Shown here: one piece after another, positions 52,927 through 63,129 of the stretch
How positions within the stretch are numbered: the first letter of the stretch is position 1
Layout: each line of letters begins with the position of its first letter
Assembly (NCBI GenBank): GCA_937872095.1
Contig: CALMNW010000085.1
Location: 1 to 64,000 of the forward strand
Direction of reading: 5' to 3'
From: an uncultured Verrucomicrobiota bacterium
GTDB lineage: Bacteria; Verrucomicrobiota; Kiritimatiellia; CAIQIC01; Lenti-01
Length of the DNA: 64,000 bases
Notes under the pieces: generated by a model
Database searches by the model: none
What the model was told of the DNA's origin: nothing
What the model saw: the letters and a program-made list of their open reading frames with translations, nothing else
Translations under genes and position numbers: made by a program

Positions 52927-53895
52927 TCAATGCGCAGAAGGCGGTGGCGTCGCGGGCGGTTGCGGCGTTTTCGGCTGAGCAGAAGGCGGCGGCGTAGAGG
53001 GCGGGCGGGGAGTTTTTTTCTGCGAGACGAGCGGGGGCAGGTCGGCGAGTTTCCGGGAGCCGTCGCGCTTGACGGGCGCGGCGGCATAGAGGGCCTGGGC
53101 TTCGGCGAGATGCGCGCGGAGCCGCTGGGAACGCTTGAAATCGCGCGGATGCGTGGCGAAGATGCTGAGGACCTTCGCGAGTTGGCTGTCGCTGGCGCCG
53201 GCGAGGCGATCCCAGACGCGCGGGGCGGCGGCGGGATCGTAGCCGGCTTTGGCCATGTACATCATGCCGATGCGATCGGCTTCCAATTCGTCCTCGCGGG
53301 AGTACTTCGTTCCGACGAGCCCGTTGTAGGCCAGCATCGCGCCCCCGATGATCAATTGCGCGTCGTCTTTCTCCTCGATTTCGGCCCAGATCGCGGCGCC
53401 GGCTAGGATCAGGTTCGGCAGCATTTCGCGCGTCATGGCCTCGGTGGAGTGGCGGCAATTGACATGGGCGATTTCGTGCGCGACGACGGCGGCCAGCTCG
53501 TCCTCCGTCTGGACGAGGCCTTCCTTCGGGTTCCAGAGGCCTTCGAAAACCAAGATGTTGCCGCCGGGCAGAGCGTAGGCGTTGACGAAATCGGGATCGC
53601 CGACGAACGTGGCTTTGTAGGGCAGGGAAGGAATGTCGGCGACCGCGGCGATGTTGGCCGTGATCTCCCGCACGAGCGCGACTCGGACTGAATCTTGATC
53701 GATCGGGGCGTTTTCTTTCTTCAGTTCGCCGACGGTCTGGGCATAGAACTTTTGGCCCAGCTCGACGTCCTCGTCGAGGCTGTACATGTTCTGGACGCTT
53801 TTTCCGGTGACGTAGTCGGTGGTGGCGCAGCCGGACGCGAGGGCGAACAACCCGGCAACCAGGGCCGGGCGGCAGATCGGATGGAACCTATTCAT
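52927..53895 (-). CDS. M48-family metalloprotease lipoprotein
   Basis: The 322-residue product has a lipoprotein signal (ALVAGLFALASGC, Cys23). The catalytic domain has H140-E-I-A-H144 in AVVAHEIAHVNCRHS and the third-ligand helix SREDELEADRIGMMYMAKAG, typical of M48 peptidases such as LoiP and BepA that survey outer-membrane protein quality. FVNAYALPGGNILVFEGL is the family's edge strand. The C-terminal about 35 residues are Pro/Ser/Thr repeats (TPPPSAQPKTPQPPATPPPS). It is convergent with the preceding operon. Confidence 0.92.
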   Translation of the reverse strand: MNRFHPICRPALVAGLFALASGCATTDYVTGKSVQNMYSLDEDVELGQKFYAQTVGELKKENAPIDQDSVRVALVREITANIAAVADIPSLPYKATFVGDPDFVNAYALPGGNILVFEGLWNPKEGLVQTEDELAAVVAHEIAHVNCRHSTEAMTREMLPNLILAGAAIWAEIEEKDDAQLIIGGAMLAYNGLVGTKYSREDELEADRIGMMYMAKAGYDPAAAPRVWDRLAGASDSQLAKVLSIFATHPRDFKRSQRLRAHLAEAQALYAAAPVKRDGSRKLADLPPLVSQKKTPRPPSTPPPSAQPKTPQPPATPPPSAH

Positions 53896-53976
53896 GGGGC
53901 GAACACTAGCGGATTTGGGGCCATCCCGCAAAAAACTTTCGCGCAATTAAAGCGTTTCGGCTAACATGCCCCGCGT

Positions 53977-55488
53977 ATGGCCTCCTCGGCGCTCCAGATG
54001 ATCTACGCGAAAAACGTGGTGTCCCGGACGGTGCACGGCACCGTCCAGGAGCTTTCGTTCGCCGTGCGCGTGCGCAACGTGGGCTTCGGCAAGCGGGTGA
54101 CGATCCGTTGGTGCGGCGAGGACGGCGTCTGGCAGGAAACGCCCGCCGAATATCGCGCGCCGCTCCCGGCTGGCGACGAGGCCTGGGTGGCGGAAACGGC
54201 CGTGCCCCTGACGAAGGAATCGGCGATTCCGGGCAATATCCAGTTCGCGGCCCGTCTCGAGCATGACGGCCAAACGCATTGGGACAGCCAATTCGGCCGG
54301 AATTACCGTTCGGACGCGGATTCGGGGGTCATCGTGTTCGAGCCGATAGCCGTCCGCGTGGTCGGGTGCGGCCCGCGCCTGCCCGACGGGCTGGTTTCGC
54401 TGCCGCTGGAGATCGCGGTGCGGCAGGAATCCGAGCCGGAAGCGGTGCTGGTGCACTGGACCACGGACGGCTGGAACACGCAGCAGGTCGCGCCGGCCTA
54501 TTTCCGGCGGAACCATTGGGACCGGACCATCGGCAGCAACGCGCGCAACCCCAACCGCTACGGCTGGGCCGTCTGGGCCGCCCGCTTGCGGCTGCGGCAT
54601 GCCTACCGCGTGGAGTTCGCCGTCGAATGCCGTACGAAACACGGCGTCGTCTGGGACAACCGCGGCGGTCTGAACTACCGCGCGCAGCACGGTCCGCTCC
54701 GGGTCCTGACGCTGAACCTGCACACCTACCAAGAGGAAGACCAGCTCGCGAAATTCGCGACGATCGCCCGCGCGATCCGCGAGCGGCGGATCGATCTGGT
54801 CTGCCTGCAGGAAGTGGGCGAGCACTGGAACGACGGCGCGGGCGACTGGGCGTCGAACGCGGCGCGAATCATCAACGAGCAGTTGCCGGCGCCGTACCGC
54901 CTGCACACGGACTGGTCGCACCTGGGCTTCGACCGGTTCCGCGAGGGCGTGGCGATCCTGAGCCGGCATCCGTTCGTTTTCACGGATGCGGGCTACGTCT
55001 CCGACTCGACGGATCCCTACGACATCCATTCCCGGAAGATCGTCATGGCGCAGTTGCGCGTGCCCTACGTGGGGCTGGTCAACGTCTTCAGCGCGCACCT
55101 GAGCTGGCCGAGCGACGGGTTTTATCCGCAGTTCGAGCGCCTGCAGGCCTGGGTGACGGAAAAGCAGATGCCGGAGGTGGCCGCCACGCTGGTGTGCGGC
55201 GATTTCAACGTGTCGGCCGGCAGCGAGGCCTATCGCGCCGTCGTGGATACCGGCGAATTCGAGGACCAGTTCCTCAAGATCGCGAATCCGCCGGCGTTCC
55301 AGAAGGTCTTCCGCGCGCGGACGCCGGGCGCGCTGGACGCGCTGGCGAACGACGGACGCATCGACTACTTGTGGCTGCGGGAAGGCGGCGCGCTGCGGGC
55401 GGTCGCCGCGGAAGAGCTGTTCACGCCGGCTCGCTACGGCCGGGTGTCCGACCACACGGGCTATGCGGTGGAGTTCGAACGGCGGTAG
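53977..55488 (+). CDS. Endonuclease/exonuclease/phosphatase-family hydrolase with tandem CBM21 modules
   Basis: The 503-residue protein has no signal peptide. Residues about 18-112 form a CBM21 module: VRVRNVGFGKRVTIRW, VWQETPAEY and FAARLEHDGQTHWDSQFGRN closely follow the pattern of glycogen-targeting subunits. Residues about 125-237 form a second one (VLVHWTTDGWNTQQVAPAYF, VEFAVECRTKHGVVWDNRGG, NYR). The EEP domain (240-503) has all catalytic features: LTLNLHT, LVCLQEV (Glu279), His374 in FSAHL, GDFN (408-411), RIDYLW and SDH (491-493). It probably cleaves a phosphodiester or phosphomonoester on or near an alpha-glucan such as glycogen (inference). The PLD-family gene follows 8 bp later. 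Confidence 0.88.
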   Translation: MASSALQMIYAKNVVSRTVHGTVQELSFAVRVRNVGFGKRVTIRWCGEDGVWQETPAEYRAPLPAGDEAWVAETAVPLTKESAIPGNIQFAARLEHDGQTHWDSQFGRNYRSDADSGVIVFEPIAVRVVGCGPRLPDGLVSLPLEIAVRQESEPEAVLVHWTTDGWNTQQVAPAYFRRNHWDRTIGSNARNPNRYGWAVWAARLRLRHAYRVEFAVECRTKHGVVWDNRGGLNYRAQHGPLRVLTLNLHTYQEEDQLAKFATIARAIRERRIDLVCLQEVGEHWNDGAGDWASNAARIINEQLPAPYRLHTDWSHLGFDRFREGVAILSRHPFVFTDAGYVSDSTDPYDIHSRKIVMAQLRVPYVGLVNVFSAHLSWPSDGFYPQFERLQAWVTEKQMPEVAATLVCGDFNVSAGSEAYRAVVDTGEFEDQFLKIANPPAFQKVFRARTPGALDALANDGRIDYLWLREGGALRAVAAEELFTPARYGRVSDHTGYAVEFERR

Positions 55489-55496
55489 GAGCGCGC

Positions 55497-57107
55497 ATGG
55501 AATTCGCCGAACAATACGCCGCGCCGACGGAGGCCTATCTGGGGCCGCTCTACCCGCGCCGGAACGAGTTCAAGGAGCTGTTCTACCTGCGCTGGGGGCG
55601 CATCCGCTTCCGCGTGGACTGGGGCGCCGAAATGAACGTGAAGGTGGTTCTCAAGGTCTTCCACGAGGACGGCACCTTCGAGCAGTATCTGGCGCACACG
55701 GATCCATGCGGCGGAAACTGGAACCGCCATGAACGCGAAACGCGCGACTTCTTCATCCATCCGCAGCCGCTGCACCAGGGCCGCGTCACCTGCGTGAAGT
55801 TTTCCTACGTCCTGCATCTCCACGGCCGCTCCATTCCGTCGCGGCTCGAATACATTTTCATGGACGGGCACGAATTCCGGAACGAAGGCGAAGTCCGGCG
55901 GTACGTCAGCGAGCAGTGGGCCACGCCGAACCCGTACCGCACGCACGAGGTGGATGCCGGCCAGCTCCAGCGCGACGTGGACTGGCTGAACCACCACTTC
56001 GACGCGCTGGGCCTGATCCCGAAATTCACCAAGGGGCAGGCGTGGCATCCGTACCATCCCAAGCGCTATCTCCACGACCTGATCGACACGATGATTTGGC
56101 GGCGCCAGACCCAGCCCGGGCGGCCCTGCGGCATCAAGGTCTGCGTGGACTGCATCGACGACGGCGATTTCATCCGCCACCTGATCCACGCGCACCGCAG
56201 CGGCGTGCCGGTGCAGATCGTCGTGGACTGGCGCAAGATGACGCTGACCAACAGCGGCAACTACCTCGATCTGAAGCGGTCGGGCATCGAGCTGCTGGGC
56301 GAGGTTTGCACCACGCGCGATCCCCTGGCCGAAGTGGCGACGGACATGCACAACAAGTTCGTGATCTTCGGCGACGAGGACGCCATCGTGGGCTCCTTCA
56401 ACATCACCTTCGACCGCTGGGGCAGCAACTGGGAATCGGGGATGACCTTCAAGTCGTTCGGCGTGTGCCGGCTGCTGGACAATATTTTCCAGGCCTGCCG
56501 CGGGGGCGTGATCCAGCGCTACGGCGTCGATCCGCTGGCGCCGTTCAACCTGCTGTACACCTTCGGGCGGACGGCGATGCTGAACGGGGCCTACTACCGC
56601 CCGCACCAGGCGATCCTGGCCGAGATCAACCGCGCGCGGCATTCGATCCACCTGTGCCTGTTCCTGATCGGCGAGCTGCGCGGGGAGCACGGCGACAGCG
56701 TGGTCGATGCGCTGATCGCGGCGAAGCACCGCGGCGTCTACGTGCGGATCGTCCTCAACGGCCACTTGGCCTGGCAGGGCGATCCGGGCCGCGAGCGCAG
56801 CTGGCACGAAGAACTCCAGCGTCCGCTGCTGCCCGCGGTGCGGCGGCTGCAGGAGGCGGGCATCGCCATCGCGCTGGTCTACGGCGTCCACGACCGCGCC
56901 GTGCCGTATTCGCCCGTGCACTCCAAGCAATGCGTCATCGACGAGTCCGTCGTCCTCGACGGCAGCTTCAACTGGTACAACACCTCGACCCTGTCGCACG
57001 ACCTGATGGTCGTGCTGAACCACCGCGACGTCGCGCGGCTCTACCTGCAGGAAGCCCAGCAAATCCTCGAGGGCTTCCGCGTCGTCTGGATCAGCCTCGC
57101 GCGCTGA
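55497..57107 (+). CDS. Phospholipase D-superfamily protein with a novel N-terminal beta domain
   Basis: The 536-residue protein lacks a signal peptide. Residues 1-130 look like an all-beta domain (FRVDWGAEMNVKVVLKVFHE, FSYVLHLHGRSIPSRLEYIF) that I cannot assign. Two PLD half-domains follow: HNKFVIFGDEDAIVGSFN (H285, K287), where the usual Asp of HxKx4D is shifted or replaced by Gly, and a standard HSKQCVIDESVVLDGSFN (H475, K477). PLD-family enzymes cut phosphodiester bonds in DNA, RNA or lipids. Pairing with the CBM21-EEP gene 8 bp upstream suggests joint action. Confidence 0.85.
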   Translation: MEFAEQYAAPTEAYLGPLYPRRNEFKELFYLRWGRIRFRVDWGAEMNVKVVLKVFHEDGTFEQYLAHTDPCGGNWNRHERETRDFFIHPQPLHQGRVTCVKFSYVLHLHGRSIPSRLEYIFMDGHEFRNEGEVRRYVSEQWATPNPYRTHEVDAGQLQRDVDWLNHHFDALGLIPKFTKGQAWHPYHPKRYLHDLIDTMIWRRQTQPGRPCGIKVCVDCIDDGDFIRHLIHAHRSGVPVQIVVDWRKMTLTNSGNYLDLKRSGIELLGEVCTTRDPLAEVATDMHNKFVIFGDEDAIVGSFNITFDRWGSNWESGMTFKSFGVCRLLDNIFQACRGGVIQRYGVDPLAPFNLLYTFGRTAMLNGAYYRPHQAILAEINRARHSIHLCLFLIGELRGEHGDSVVDALIAAKHRGVYVRIVLNGHLAWQGDPGRERSWHEELQRPLLPAVRRLQEAGIAIALVYGVHDRAVPYSPVHSKQCVIDESVVLDGSFNWYNTSTLSHDLMVVLNHRDVARLYLQEAQQILEGFRVVWISLAR

Positions 57108-57207
57108 ACGCCCAAACCGGCGCGGGGGCTGGGCGTTACCCGGGATTTCTTCCATGGCGGTCTTCGCCGCGCTTGCGCAACCCGATGGTTTCGGGCACAT
57201 TTCCGGC

Positions 57208-60200
57208 ATGGGTTTGCGTTTTCAGGGCGGCGGGGCCGCAAAGGCCATCCGATGGGCGGCAGCGTGCGCAGCCCTGCTGGGTACGTCCGCGTTCGCGCAA
57301 ACGGAGGCGTTTGAAGGCGCCCTTTTTCCGCCGGCCGGCTGGACGAACGGGGGGACCGCGATCTGGTTCAACTACGCCGTCTCCGCGTACGGCGTCGGAA
57401 CGAACTCCGCCATGGCGGCCTTCTATTCCGTCTCCGCGGGAACCGGGATGCTGGAAACGGCCCTCTTCGAAGCGCCCGCGGCTGGCGCCACCCTCGGGTT
57501 CGATTATGCCTATGCGGCCTTTGGCGCCGACTACGTCGACCGTCTGGCGATCCAGGTCTCCACGAACGCGGGCGCGACTTATTCCCTTTTGCTGGATATG
57601 CCCGGCGGCACCAACGCCGCCCTCAACACGGCCGGCACGCAAAGCAGCTATTTCGTGCCGACCGCCGCGGAATGGAAAACCAAAAGCATTCCCCTGCCGA
57701 CCGGGGCCAATCGGATTCGGTTCGACGCGATCACGGACTATGGAAACAATCTGTTTCTCGACAACGTGCAGATCTACGACGGAACGTCCGCCGCCGATCT
57801 GGCGCTGTCGTTGGCCGATTCGCCCGATCCGGTCTTGGGGGGCAGCAACCTGACCTATGCGATTGCGGTGTCCAATGCGGGGCCGGCGACGGCCGAGGGC
57901 GTGGTTTTGACCAACGGGTGGCCGGCTGGGGCGATTCTGGTTTCCGCGGAGGCCAGCCGGGGAAGCTGGATCACGAACGGCGAAACCATCGTGGCTGATC
58001 TCGGGTCGCTCGCCGTCGGGGAGGCGGCGACCGCGACGCTGGTCGTGCAGCCCCTATCCGCAGGCATCGCCACGAACGTCGCCGAGGTGTCCGCGGCGAC
58101 CTGGGATCCCCAGACGGGGAACAACCGGGCGACCGAAACGACGGCGGTGGATCCCGCCGATCTGGCGCTGACGGTGGTCGATTCGCCCGATCCGGTCGCG
58201 GTGGGCAGCAACCTGACCTATGCGATTGCGGTGTCCAATGCGGGGCCGGCGACGGCCGAGGGCGTGGTTTTGACCAACCGGTGGCCCGCCGGCGCGCTTC
58301 TGGTGTCCGCGGAAGCCAGCCGGGGAAACTGGATCACGAACGGCGAAACGATCGTGGCCGACCTCGGTTCGCTCGCCGTCGGTGAGATGGCGACCGCGAC
58401 GCTGGTCGTGCAGCCGCAGTCCGAAGGGACCATCACGAACTGGGCGGAAGTATCCACGTCGAGTTTCGATCTCCAATCGGGAAACAACCGCCAAAGCGCG
58501 GCGACGCTGGTGAGCCATGCCGGCGGCAACGTGTACGTCCGGACGAACTTCTACGGCGTGAGCGAGGATCGCGGCACGCTCGCGCTGTACCTGTATCGCA
58601 CGAACGGCGTGATCGGAGAAATCTCCATCGATTACGAGACCGTGGACGGCACGGCGACGGCCGGAAGCGACTACACGGACCGCCGGGGAACGCTCGTCCT
58701 CAGCAACAACGTGACCTCGGCCTCGTTGTCCATTCCCATTCTGAACGACGCGGATCCCGAGGACGACGAATCCTTCACGGTCCGGCTGTACAATCCCCAG
58801 GGCGGGGCGGTGCTGTCCGCGCCCAGCAACGCGACGATCCTGATTCACGACGAGGATGGCCTGGCCGCGTTGCCGTTCGAGGAAGGATTTGAATCGGGCG
58901 CGCTTTCCAACTACTGGGGTTTCTACTCGACCGCGACGACCGGTCCCAAGATCGACACCAACGATCTTCCCCACGGCGGGATTCGGCATCTCAACATGAA
59001 TGGCGTTCCCACCTATTCGCTCAACGAACTGGTGTTGAACGCGGACCTGTCCGGGCGGGAGGGGGTCCATCTCCGGTTCTGGCACAAGCGGCTGCCGTAC
59101 GAAACGGACAGCGCCATGAGCGAAACTTTCCAAGGCCATTCCTATGCGGACGGCGTGGCGATCAGCGTGGACGGGACCAATTGGTGCAAAGTCCATGGGT
59201 TGACGCTGGCCGAAACCGGCACGAACGAATACCGCCAGTTCGACGTGGCGCTCGATCCGATCCTGGCGGCGTACGGCTTGGGGTACACCAGCCGCGTGCG
59301 CATCAAATTCCAGGCGTACGGCTACTATTATCCTCCATATTACGGCCGTTTCTTCGACGACGTCGAACTCTACACCAGCGCCGGCAATCTGCGGTTCGCC
59401 GCGGAGGAATGGATGGGAACCGAAGCCGGCGGAGCGGTGACCGTGACCGTCGAACGCGTCGTGGGCGATTCGGGCGAAGTCGGCGTGGATTACGAAACCT
59501 TCGACGGCTCGGCGCTGGCGGGAAGCGATTACGCCGCCGCGACGGGCACGCTGACGTTTTCCAACGGCGTGCGGCAGCAGGCTTTCGTCGTGTCGATCCT
59601 CGACGACGGCGACGACGAACCGCAGGAAGCCTTCGGCATCCGCCTGTTCAATCCGCAGGGCGGCGCAGAACTCGCCAGCCCGACGCAGGCCGTGGTCCGC
59701 ATCGACGACGACGACGGCCCCGGGGAAGTGGCCTTTGCCGCGGCGCAATACGCGGAGCAGGAAGACAACGGTTTTGCGGCCATCGCGGTGAACCGCCTGT
59801 ATGGCCGGGACGGAGAGGTGTCCGTCCGTTGGCGGACGCAGGCCGGCACGGCGACGCCAGGCGCGGATTACGTGGAATCCACCGGAACGGTCGTCTTCGC
59901 GGACGGCGAAGTCCAATCCTTGTTCGAGATTCCCCTGCTGGACGATGCGACCGTCGAAGGACCGGAGACGGTCCAGCTTTTCCTGGAAGAGCCGGGAGGC
60001 GGCGCGACGCTCGGAACGCCCACCAACGCATGCCTGACGATCCAGGACGACGAGGCTCCGCGCGCCGCGTTTCCCTTCTACGCGGGCTTCGAATCCGGCG
60101 TGTGGTCGAACTACTGGACGGTGCGCACGAACGGGCCCGGCCGAATCCAGCAGATCAACCGGACCAACGGGTTCGAGGTCAACCGCAGCCTGACGATGGA

Positions 60201-63129
60201 TTCCGCCGGCGGGGCCGCCCTCAACGAAGCGACCCTGACCGTGGACCTGTCCGGCCAGACCAGCGTCATTTTCCGCTGCTGGGCGCGCGACTTCGCGGAT
60301 GCGGTCCAGCCGATGCCCGCGACGTTCGTCTATTCCACCAACGCCGACGGCATCGCCGCCAGCGCCGACGGACTGACTTGGTACCGGCTCGTGGATCTGA
60401 CGACGCCGGGCACCCAGAGCGCGTACACGAATTTCGTCGTGGATCTGGCGGCCTTCGCCGCGGAACAAAGTCTGCCGCTGACGTCGACGTTCCAGATCCG
60501 TTTCCAGCAGTACGGCGATGCCGCGTTTCCCGCGGCCGGCCGTTCGTTCGACCACGTCAGCCTGACTCCCGCGCCGCCGGCCACCTCCACCGTGATCCGC
60601 GCGCAGGGCTTCGAGGGCGAAACCGGCGACACCTGGGCGTTCAAGATCGTGCCGTCGCTCGGCCAAATCGCCGTGCGGAACGAACGGAAGGCCAACGGCA
60701 CGCGATCGCTGCGTCTGGCCGGCGCGCCTCTGAACGCCAACGTGGATCCGTACGCGGAATTCGAGAACGTTTCGATCGGTTCGTACAACCACGTCCGCCT
60801 GGCCGTGGCATTCAGCGCCCAGGGCGCCGATTCGGGCGACGACCTCTATCTGGACGTTTCGTATGACAACGGCGCGACGTGGAACGGCGCGGGGAGCGTC
60901 AAGCTCGTGGACGGCTACAGCAACGGCGACGTGCCCTTCGGGGGCACCAACGCCAGCAATCCGACGACGGTCACCAACAATCCATGGGAATTCGAAGTGC
61001 CGGCCGGCATGGCCCAGATCAAGGTGCGGTTGCGGTTCGACGAGGCTTCCGCGAAAAACAACACCAACGATTTCTACTTCGTGGACGACCTGCGCCTGTA
61101 CTATCTCCCGACGAACCAGCCGCCGGCGCTGGATCCGATCGGCGACTGGACCGCGCTGGTCAGCAACCGCCTCGAATTCGCCGTGGTGGCGACGGACATC
61201 GACAGCAACGAGGTTGCCCTGGTGGCCAGCAACCTGCCGGCGGGCGCGACGTTCGCGCCGCTTTCGGGAACGGCGCCGGTCACGAACTGGTTCGCCTTCA
61301 CGCCGGACGAAACCCAGGCCGACGCCGTCTATCCCGTGGTCTTCCACGTGTCGGACGTGGACGGCTACAACGCGCAGACCGCGACGATCCAAGTGCTGGA
61401 CAAGATCGTGACCTTCTCCACGAACCGCCTGTTCGTGGACGAGGAATCCGGCGCCGCGACGCTGGGGATTTCGCTGTCCCGCGCGGCGGACGCGACGGTG
61501 CCCTTGGCGATCGGCGGCCTCGCCGCCCTGGACGGCGACTACGTCCTGTCGAGCACCTCCCTGACGTTCGCGGTGGATGGCCCCAGCGAGCAAACCGTCG
61601 AAATCGCGCCCATCGACGACGAGCTTTCGGAGGGGCCGGAGAACGTCCGGATTTCCGTGGCGAGCAATCCGGAAAGCGCGGCGGGCGACGACGGCTGCGA
61701 GATCTTCATCCGCGACGACGACAGCCTCACCCTGGCCACGGCCAACCTGACCAGCGGCGGCAGCGCCATCTACATGGACGCCGGCGCGCGCATCCTCCAG
61801 GCGCTGGTGGCGGACGTCGTGGCCATCCAGGAATTCAGCGTGACGAACGCCGCCGGGCACCGGGCGTTCGTCGACCTGAATTTCGGAACCAATTTCCATT
61901 ACTGCGTGGAGCCGACGGGCAACCTGCCCAACGGCGTCATCAGCCGCTGGCCCATCTTGGACTGGGGCGAGTGGGTGGATCCGCAAGTGTCCGACCGCGA
62001 TTTCGTGTGGGCCACGGTGGACGTGCCCGGCGGGCGCCCCCTGCACGTCGTGAGCGTGCACCTGCACGCCTCCGGCGGCACCGCGTCGCGGGAAATCGAG
62101 GCCCGCCTGCTGACCAACTACGTCGCCCAGGCCGGATTCCATCCCATGGATTTGGTGGCGCTCTGCGGCGACCTGAACACGCAGAACCGCTCCGAGGCCG
62201 CCTTCCAGATCCTCAAGACCCTCCTGTCGGACGACCGCAAGCCGACCGACCAGTACGGCGACACCGATACGAACCAGCCGCGGGACAAGCCCTACGACGT
62301 GGTGCTGCCCATTCCCTATCTCGACGCGCGCCATCTGCCGGTGCATTTCGGCGGCCTGACGTTCGCGGAAGGCCTCGCCTTCGACACGCGTCTCTGGACC
62401 GAGGACACCATTCCCTATCCGGCGCTGGTTTCCGACTCCGGCACCTTGAGCATGCAGCACATGGGCGTCGAGAAGGTCTTCGCGCTGGATCGGTTCGTGA
62501 GCATCCTCACGCAGGCCGGCGTCCACGGCGCCATCGGCCCCGCCGACCCCGAGGTGGGCGTGGGGTCGAACCAGACCTTCGTCGTGGCCGCCGATCCGTA
62601 CTACCACGTCGACGGTCTGGCCACCAACGGCTTCGCCTGGACTCCGCCGGAAGCGACGAACGAACTGGTTTGGGTATGGAGCAACGCGCAGGACAACGCC
62701 TGGCTGGACGTGTCGTTCGCCGAGAACCTCACGCCCGCGCACGGCATTCCCGAATGGTGGCTGGCCGCGCACGGAATCACGGACCACTTCGCCGAGGCCG
62801 AGGAAGACGATCTGGACGGCGACGGATTCTTCACCTGGCAGGAATACGTCATGGACACCCATCCGCGGGATTCCGAATCGTTCCTTCGCCTGGATTCCAT
62901 GGAATGCGCGCGGGACGGCGACGAAGTCGTGGTGGGTTACGTCCTGAGCTGGCCTGCCTCGACCGGCCGCGTCTACGACGTGGAATATCTGGCCGATCTG
63001 GTCGGCGACGCCTGGCTGCCGCTGGAAGGCCTGACCAATCTGACCCCGTCCTCGGGCCAGCAGGCCGTCACCAACGTCTTCCACGACGGACGCCTGCGGA
63101 TGTTGCGCCTGCTGGTCCGTCAACCCTGA
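57208..63129 (+). CDS. Very large secreted multidomain protein: DUF11, Calx-beta and EEP-like domains
   Basis: About 1973 residues from the ATG at 57208, which gives a normal signal peptide (AAACAALLGTSAFAQ); an in-frame ATG at 57154 would add 18 residues. By numbering from 57154: an N-terminal jelly roll, two near-identical DUF11 repeats (about 212-330, 334-450), a Calx-beta domain (458-565), a beta domain, Calx-beta domains 2 and 3 (744-850, 859-963), further jelly rolls, a cadherin-like domain (1323) and Calx-beta 4 (1418-1519). An EEP-like domain (about 1528-1790) follows with VVAIQEFS, VSVHLHA and GDLNTQN; a clear SDH motif is lacking. EF-hand-like DLDGDGFFTWQEYV lies near 1886. It is probably a surface or extracellular nuclease/phosphatase-like protein. 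Confidence 0.88.
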   Translation: MGLRFQGGGAAKAIRWAAACAALLGTSAFAQTEAFEGALFPPAGWTNGGTAIWFNYAVSAYGVGTNSAMAAFYSVSAGTGMLETALFEAPAAGATLGFDYAYAAFGADYVDRLAIQVSTNAGATYSLLLDMPGGTNAALNTAGTQSSYFVPTAAEWKTKSIPLPTGANRIRFDAITDYGNNLFLDNVQIYDGTSAADLALSLADSPDPVLGGSNLTYAIAVSNAGPATAEGVVLTNGWPAGAILVSAEASRGSWITNGETIVADLGSLAVGEAATATLVVQPLSAGIATNVAEVSAATWDPQTGNNRATETTAVDPADLALTVVDSPDPVAVGSNLTYAIAVSNAGPATAEGVVLTNRWPAGALLVSAEASRGNWITNGETIVADLGSLAVGEMATATLVVQPQSEGTITNWAEVSTSSFDLQSGNNRQSAATLVSHAGGNVYVRTNFYGVSEDRGTLALYLYRTNGVIGEISIDYETVDGTATAGSDYTDRRGTLVLSNNVTSASLSIPILNDADPEDDESFTVRLYNPQGGAVLSAPSNATILIHDEDGLAALPFEEGFESGALSNYWGFYSTATTGPKIDTNDLPHGGIRHLNMNGVPTYSLNELVLNADLSGREGVHLRFWHKRLPYETDSAMSETFQGHSYADGVAISVDGTNWCKVHGLTLAETGTNEYRQFDVALDPILAAYGLGYTSRVRIKFQAYGYYYPPYYGRFFDDVELYTSAGNLRFAAEEWMGTEAGGAVTVTVERVVGDSGEVGVDYETFDGSALAGSDYAAATGTLTFSNGVRQQAFVVSILDDGDDEPQEAFGIRLFNPQGGAELASPTQAVVRIDDDDGPGEVAFAAAQYAEQEDNGFAAIAVNRLYGRDGEVSVRWRTQAGTATPGADYVESTGTVVFADGEVQSLFEIPLLDDATVEGPETVQLFLEEPGGGATLGTPTNACLTIQDDEAPRAAFPFYAGFESGVWSNYWTVRTNGPGRIQQINRTNGFEVNRSLTMDSAGGAALNEATLTVDLSGQTSVIFRCWARDFADAVQPMPATFVYSTNADGIAASADGLTWYRLVDLTTPGTQSAYTNFVVDLAAFAAEQSLPLTSTFQIRFQQYGDAAFPAAGRSFDHVSLTPAPPATSTVIRAQGFEGETGDTWAFKIVPSLGQIAVRNERKANGTRSLRLAGAPLNANVDPYAEFENVSIGSYNHVRLAVAFSAQGADSGDDLYLDVSYDNGATWNGAGSVKLVDGYSNGDVPFGGTNASNPTTVTNNPWEFEVPAGMAQIKVRLRFDEASAKNNTNDFYFVDDLRLYYLPTNQPPALDPIGDWTALVSNRLEFAVVATDIDSNEVALVASNLPAGATFAPLSGTAPVTNWFAFTPDETQADAVYPVVFHVSDVDGYNAQTATIQVLDKIVTFSTNRLFVDEESGAATLGISLSRAADATVPLAIGGLAALDGDYVLSSTSLTFAVDGPSEQTVEIAPIDDELSEGPENVRISVASNPESAAGDDGCEIFIRDDDSLTLATANLTSGGSAIYMDAGARILQALVADVVAIQEFSVTNAAGHRAFVDLNFGTNFHYCVEPTGNLPNGVISRWPILDWGEWVDPQVSDRDFVWATVDVPGGRPLHVVSVHLHASGGTASREIEARLLTNYVAQAGFHPMDLVALCGDLNTQNRSEAAFQILKTLLSDDRKPTDQYGDTDTNQPRDKPYDVVLPIPYLDARHLPVHFGGLTFAEGLAFDTRLWTEDTIPYPALVSDSGTLSMQHMGVEKVFALDRFVSILTQAGVHGAIGPADPEVGVGSNQTFVVAADPYYHVDGLATNGFAWTPPEATNELVWVWSNAQDNAWLDVSFAENLTPAHGIPEWWLAAHGITDHFAEAEEDDLDGDGFFTWQEYVMDTHPRDSESFLRLDSMECARDGDEVVVGYVLSWPASTGRVYDVEYLADLVGDAWLPLEGLTNLTPSSGQQAVTNVFHDGRLRMLRLLVRQP

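Follow-up and report, generated by a model that had tools for sequence, protein, structure and literature searches.

Tandem CBM21 modules fused to a MapP-type EEP domain in Verrucomicrobiota: a putative alpha-glucan phosphatase encoded with a PLD-superfamily partner

In the window, that is, the whole 64,000-nucleotide stretch of an uncultured Verrucomicrobiota bacterium analysed here, the gene at 53977..55488 (+ strand, ATG start) encodes a protein of 503 aa in which two CBM21 modules precede an EEP domain of the MapP type. The gene forms a two-gene unit with a PLD-superfamily gene, a partner that the original prediction had missed. Because CBM21 modules are associated with binding of intracellular alpha-glucan and the catalytic domain is MapP-type, the protein is read as a putative cytoplasmic alpha-glucan (glycogen) phosphatase assisted by the PLD phosphodiesterase, a reading to which we give a probability of roughly 0.58.

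Profile search and structure prediction, two of the checks proposed with the original prediction, agree with its domain order. CBM_21 (1.4e-13; 51.5 bits for a cut-off of 28.9, in two stretches) and Exo_endo_phos (2.4e-16; 60.6 bits for a cut-off of 24.5) both match above the Pfam cut-off, and in a six-frame search of the entire 3.3-Mb genome CBM_21 was found twice and only here, at 54040-54309 and 54436-54681. The AlphaFold2 model (mean pLDDT 89) consists almost exclusively of strands in residues 1-237, followed by the alpha/beta EEP fold. Searched against PDB sequences, module 1 matches the solved CBM21s of the PP1 glycogen-targeting subunits PPP1R3B (2eef, 4.4e-6) and PPP1R3C (7qf7, 5.6e-4), and the family profile of the CBM21-EEP proteins matches 2eef, 7qf7, 2m83 and the CBM21 of Rhizopus glucoamylase (2djm). 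A generic Ig-like fold of the N-terminal modules, the alternative raised at the outset, is ruled out by these CBM21 profile and PDB sequence matches. The sequence shows no N-terminal hydrophobic stretch and no apparent signal peptide, the latter as had been said originally, so the protein is probably cytoplasmic.

Module 1 (aa ~6-112, 53992..54312) and module 2 (aa ~119-236, 54331..54684), both on the + strand, end literally in the predicted WDxxxGxNYR motif, as WDSQFGRNYR and WDNRGGLNYR. The FxKxVxIR core had also been assigned to both; it occurs in module 1 (FGKRVTIR) and not in module 2, which reads EAVLVHWTTDGW and is devoid of FxK. In the structure of the PTG CBM21 with beta-cyclodextrin, site I comprises R187, W193, Y196, C235, W246, N248 and N253, and the dominant site II N177, F180, E181, K182, Y203 and D214 (PMC9582199). 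Alignment places site II of PTG on N34, F37, G38 (Glu in several orthologues), the invariant K39 and Y59 of module 1, and site I on R44, W52, the invariant W102 and N109, although where W52 and the equivalent of D214 (E68 or W70) fall hinges on small gaps. In module 2 site-I-like residues are W166 and N233, both invariant, and W226; site II is lost, and a conserved, family-specific ARNPNR insert occupies residues 189-194. Judged by this alignment, module 1 keeps most of both sugar sites and module 2 keeps site I only. The PP1 glycogen-targeting subunits (PPP1R3B, R3C/PTG and R3A), animal regulators of glycogen for which CBM21 is best known, carry it with largely the same sugar-site residues, but they recruit the protein phosphatase PP1, whereas here a catalytic domain other than PP1 is fused to the modules.

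CBM21 also occurs in other proteins of the class. Four relatives (L064, L070, L077 and L082) encode separate CBM21 proteins of ~280-430 aa with signal-peptide-like starts, in which no catalytic Pfam domain was found; those of L077 and L082 contain several starch-binding modules each (CBM21 and CBM53), which suggests secreted starch-binding scaffolds. These proteins resemble the CBM21-EEP protein in CBM21 modules with a WDNNGG..Y ending, and differ from it in that they are apparently secreted and no EEP domain was found in them. The protein encoded at L081:1-2259 is a candidate bacterial CBM21-amylase fusion: its signal-peptide-like start is followed by a weak CBM21, after which a GH13 alpha-amylase domain begins.

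The EEP domain (aa 237-503, 54685..55485, + strand) carries the catalytic set N247, E279, H374, D409, N411, D463, D492 and H493; the motifs TLNLH, QE, SAH, GDFN, RIDY and SDH are all present, and the claim of a catalytically complete domain stands. In a maximum-likelihood tree of 13 CBM21-EEP domains, five MapP-type proteins and 19 further EEP domains of three genomes (that of the window and those of two relatives), the CBM21-EEP and MapP-type domains form one clade (support 100/99, stem of 1.45 changes per column); the support for the CBM21 side inside the MapP-type clade is lower (61/96). The MapP-type relatives in the tree were chosen as best matches, at pairwise identities of 27-29% to the CBM21-EEP domain. 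Residues shared by the clade and rare elsewhere include L246, H249, E253, K259, N294, H315, G317, E323, W377 and F382. The closest structure to the EEP part is 3teb (27% identity, Z 30.6, rmsd 2.4 over 237 residues), an entry titled by family alone; it matches the MapP-type protein of Priestia at 3e-68 and is, by this comparison, a MapP-type protein itself. An ExoIII assignment is ruled out by the tree, where the domain is separate from the ExoIII-like rows, and by low NCBIfam scores. A sphingomyelinase assignment was rejected as well, with an NCBIfam score of 13.6 bits for a cut-off of 248 and with the grouping of the domain with MapP.

Five MapP-type relatives were inspected, from Enterococcus, Lactococcus, Priestia, Leclercia and Cetobacterium. 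They have 261-274 aa and no CBM, and all five lie directly downstream of a PTS IIBC gene (alpha-glucoside-type PTS transporter), with GH65 phosphorylase plus beta-phosphoglucomutase, beta-phosphoglucomutase alone or alpha-glucosidase encoded nearby. MapP is reported to be a maltose-6-phosphate phosphatase of the EEP family in Enterococcus, encoded behind malT (PMC3737437). Since the relatives share the gene arrangement of mapP and one clade unites them with the CBM21-EEP domains, the catalytic domain is read as MapP-type. The CBM21-EEP protein may work like MapP, though it is not filed as MapP. The likeness lies in the clade, the family-specific residues and the alpha-glucoside context; MapP-type proteins, however, consist of one domain and have a PTS transporter gene as their neighbour, whereas here two CBM21s are fused, a PLD partner is constant, and no alpha-glucoside PTS gene was found directly before the CBM21-EEP gene in the 64-kb window or in the scanned neighbours of its orthologues. 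Given the 27-29% identity to MapP-type domains, the substrate may differ. Phosphate removal and the cutting of a nucleotide signal had been offered originally as possible activities; the MapP-type grouping favours the former over the latter. Another EEP enzyme of sugar 6-phosphates, the Bacteroides mannosyl-6-phosphatase BT3783 (4c1r), shares the fold (Z 24.5, rmsd 2.9 over 226 residues) but acts on another sugar and, at 20% identity, is further removed in sequence. Among 72,556 plasmid records the best relatives of the catalytic domain were EEP-only proteins, and only MapP-type relatives of this domain were found to be plasmid-borne.

Further EEP domains are present in the same genome. The downstream gene 57154-63129 encodes an apparently secreted protein of 1991 aa with Calx-beta and DUF11 repeats and an unrelated EEP near its C-terminus. 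Outside the window, an EEP match (G000:C14:197838-198395; L145) lies within one open frame 12,857 aa long, and more are found in frames of 1183, 1972 and 2699 aa; the genome appears to fuse EEP domains repeatedly to very large proteins.

The second gene of the unit (55497..57107, + strand) starts 8 bp after the CBM21-EEP stop codon, with which its Shine-Dalgarno-like AGGAG (55487..55491, + strand) overlaps. It encodes a protein of 536 aa with two HKD-type motifs and no apparent signal peptide, assigned to the PLD superfamily by PLDc_2 (5.7e-36, two stretches, Pfam). Motif 1, HNKFVIFGDEDAIVGSFN (56349..56402, + strand), has Gly at the usual Asp position and keeps H, K and GSxN, with H285, K287, G299, S300 and N302 invariant; motif 2, HSKQCVIDESVVLDGSFN (56919..56972, + strand), is a canonical HxKx4Dx6GSxN, with H475, K477, D482, G489, S490 and N492 invariant. 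Across 20 sequences neither the catalytic His nor the catalytic Lys varies. The N-terminal strand-rich domain (aa 1-150, 55497..55946, + strand) has no Pfam or PDB sequence match; a CBM21 in this domain was rejected, as profile comparison with both modules, Pfam and PDB profile searches gave no match. In the fold searches the PLD domain filled the list of matches, which includes PLD3 and PLD4 (Z 31-33; for PLD3 Z 33, rmsd 3.1 over 329 residues), phosphatidylserine synthases, PLDs and polyphosphate kinase. Such matches speak for the fold, not for the substrate.

The two genes are adjacent in 23/23 genomes found to carry either: 20 of 20 in the class of the window, one genome of another Verrucomicrobiota class (G336), and two of Planctomycetota, namely G547 and a Pirellulaceae MAG, where they are adjacent but divergent. 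Orthologues of the CBM21-EEP gene are thus known from 22 other genomes, at about 45-88% identity and all full length except one contig-edge fragment. The class accounts for 20 carriers among 240 genomes (the fragment included; full-length identities 50-88%), and the gene of G336 has 45% identity and that of the MAG, identified by a single-protein scan of the genome contigs, 48%. The PLD partner is better conserved (about 57-94%). Outside the class of the window the pair is rare, the partner having been found in one of 384 genomes of the class of G336 and in two of 392 sampled Planctomycetota genomes. Inheritance of the pair is lineage-stable in families f1 and f10. For each of the three domains of the CBM21-EEP protein dN/dS against the nearest relative is 0.20-0.26; therefore the CBM modules are under selection and not decaying.

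This inheritance bears on whether the pair might be one of nucleases, with EEP and PLD cutting nucleic acid in DNA repair or against phages and CBM21 perhaps targeting glucosylated DNA. Nucleases exist in both superfamilies, the exonucleases PLD3 and PLD4 are among the PLD matches, and the partner has weak DrmC and MkoC profile matches. Against it, the EEP domain is MapP-type and lies apart from the ExoIII-like rows of the tree, the stable inheritance is accompanied by no relatives of the PLD partner found in viral contigs, and the DrmC matches (39.7 bits for a cut-off of 133 for DISARM DrmC, NCBIfam) represent generic PLD similarity. A defence system was rejected too, with no PADLOC match to the EEP protein and only such generic similarity in the partner. 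A nuclease pair is hence very unlikely.

Around the pair, no wider conserved neighbourhood was found except for a peptidase gene, which close relatives share, and for Omp85/TamB, seen in a single genus. In most genomes read the neighbours are unrelated genes, in a survey that is incomplete, the ORF caller having often chosen shadow frames in these GC-rich genomes. The peptidase gene (52927-53946, - strand) is divergent, starts 30 bp from the CBM21-EEP start, so that any promoters must overlap, and encodes a look-alike of lipoprotein M48-type metallopeptidases (HExxH, by eye); a similar ORF is present in five other loci. In genus g34, Omp85 and TamB-like genes follow the pair on the same strand (L104:3935-8436, by a Pfam run, and L107:3547-8057, by similar ORFs), possibly as one operon with it. 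Together with the phosphatidylserine synthases and PLDs among the structural matches of the partner, and with a pairing that resembles phospholipase plus phosphatase chemistry, this linkage could point to PLD and a sphingomyelinase-like EEP acting on membrane-associated or imported lipid or glycolipid, with CBM21 for a glucosylated head group. Yet the linkage was seen in that genus only, no signal peptide or membrane segment is apparent, and the EEP domain groups with MapP and stays far below the sphingomyelinase cut-off given above. Lipid-active enzymes are highly improbable here, and like nucleases they fit the evidence poorly.

An alpha-glucan setting is found in G336, the sole genome of its class in which the pair was found. 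There, a GH13 gene, a treS-maltokinase fusion (TIGR02456, 914 bits; TIGR02457, 448 bits) and glgE (GlgE_dom_N_S, 187 bits) precede the pair on the same strand, at a distance of ~0.2 kb. This glgE linkage is a single case and could be due to chance, but a role in alpha-glucan metabolism would predict it. Of the 21 carriers examined, 19 have the glycogen synthase GlgA (the two that lack it are 69-71% complete) and 18 have glycogen phosphorylase; this co-occurrence is not discriminating, as non-carriers have both about as often. GlgE was rejected as a general partner (2/21 carriers). The G336 locus, with trehalose, maltose and maltose-1-P as its intermediates, and the action of MapP, the nearest characterised relative, on a disaccharide phosphate would also suit a phosphatase of small alpha-glucoside phosphates (maltose-6'-P, trehalose-6-P, maltose-1-P or maltodextrin-P) that CBM21 merely concentrates on glycogen as a scaffold, helping glycogen turnover. 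Nevertheless, the two CBM21 modules imply a polymer, the five inspected MapP-type proteins having none, most carriers lack GlgE, and the obligate PLD partner would be left unexplained. Glycogen as a mere scaffold is considered rather unlikely, though more probable than the nuclease and lipid readings.

In the preferred reading, that of an alpha-glucan phosphatase, the two CBM21 modules would hold the 503-aa protein on an intracellular alpha-1,4-glucan, be it glycogen or another, and the MapP-type domain would hydrolyse phosphate monoesters. The phosphate would probably sit at C6 of the glucosyl residues, either in the polymer itself or in phosphorylated maltodextrins that it gives off. The material would be shared with the PLD enzyme of the same operon. 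On chemical grounds, this enzyme would most likely turn phosphodiesters (R-O-P-O-R') into monoesters, for the EEP domain to remove afterwards. The dephosphorylated glucan would again become accessible to phosphorylase, branching and debranching enzymes. The PLD enzyme shares its fold superfamily, and phospho-histidine chemistry, with polyphosphate kinase, and the operon might conversely be a complete write-and-erase system for glycogen phosphate, in which the glucan receives a phosphoryl or phospho-alkyl group from PLD and loses it again to the CBM21-EEP protein; such a system is, in our estimate, very improbable.

The glucan phosphatases described so far, such as laforin and SEX4, come from animals, algae and plants. 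The job proposed for the CBM21-EEP protein is the one that laforin, the human glycogen phosphate remover, and plant SEX4 perform, with a carbohydrate-binding module and a phosphatase acting on glucan-bound phosphate. Laforin, however, is a cysteine dual-specificity phosphatase with CBM20, and SEX4 has CBM48 as its binding module, whereas the bacterial protein has CBM21 and the metal-dependent EEP fold in place of the laforin-type combination. Since binding module and phosphatase fold both differ, any likeness would be one of convergence, not membership, and the CBM21-EEP protein looks like a bacterial counterpart of laforin as an analogue only, unrelated to it. Phosphorylation of bacterial glycogen has been treated as a matter for speculation (PMC13011383). 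In the literature searched, with subscription journals mostly outside it, no description of a CBM21-EEP protein or of a bacterial glucan phosphatase was found, nor any characterised homologue of the CBM21-CBM21-EEP layout, in line with the novelty claimed at first.

The fusion suggests a range for MapP-type EEP domains that extends beyond PTS sugars. If the reading as a glucan phosphatase is true, some bacterial glycogen is predicted to be phosphorylated or phosphodiester-modified, and the CBM21-EEP/PLD operon would offer a direct handle on whether bacterial glycogen carries phosphate. Moreover, the protein would then represent a convergent answer to the laforin problem, reached from an unrelated phosphatase fold.
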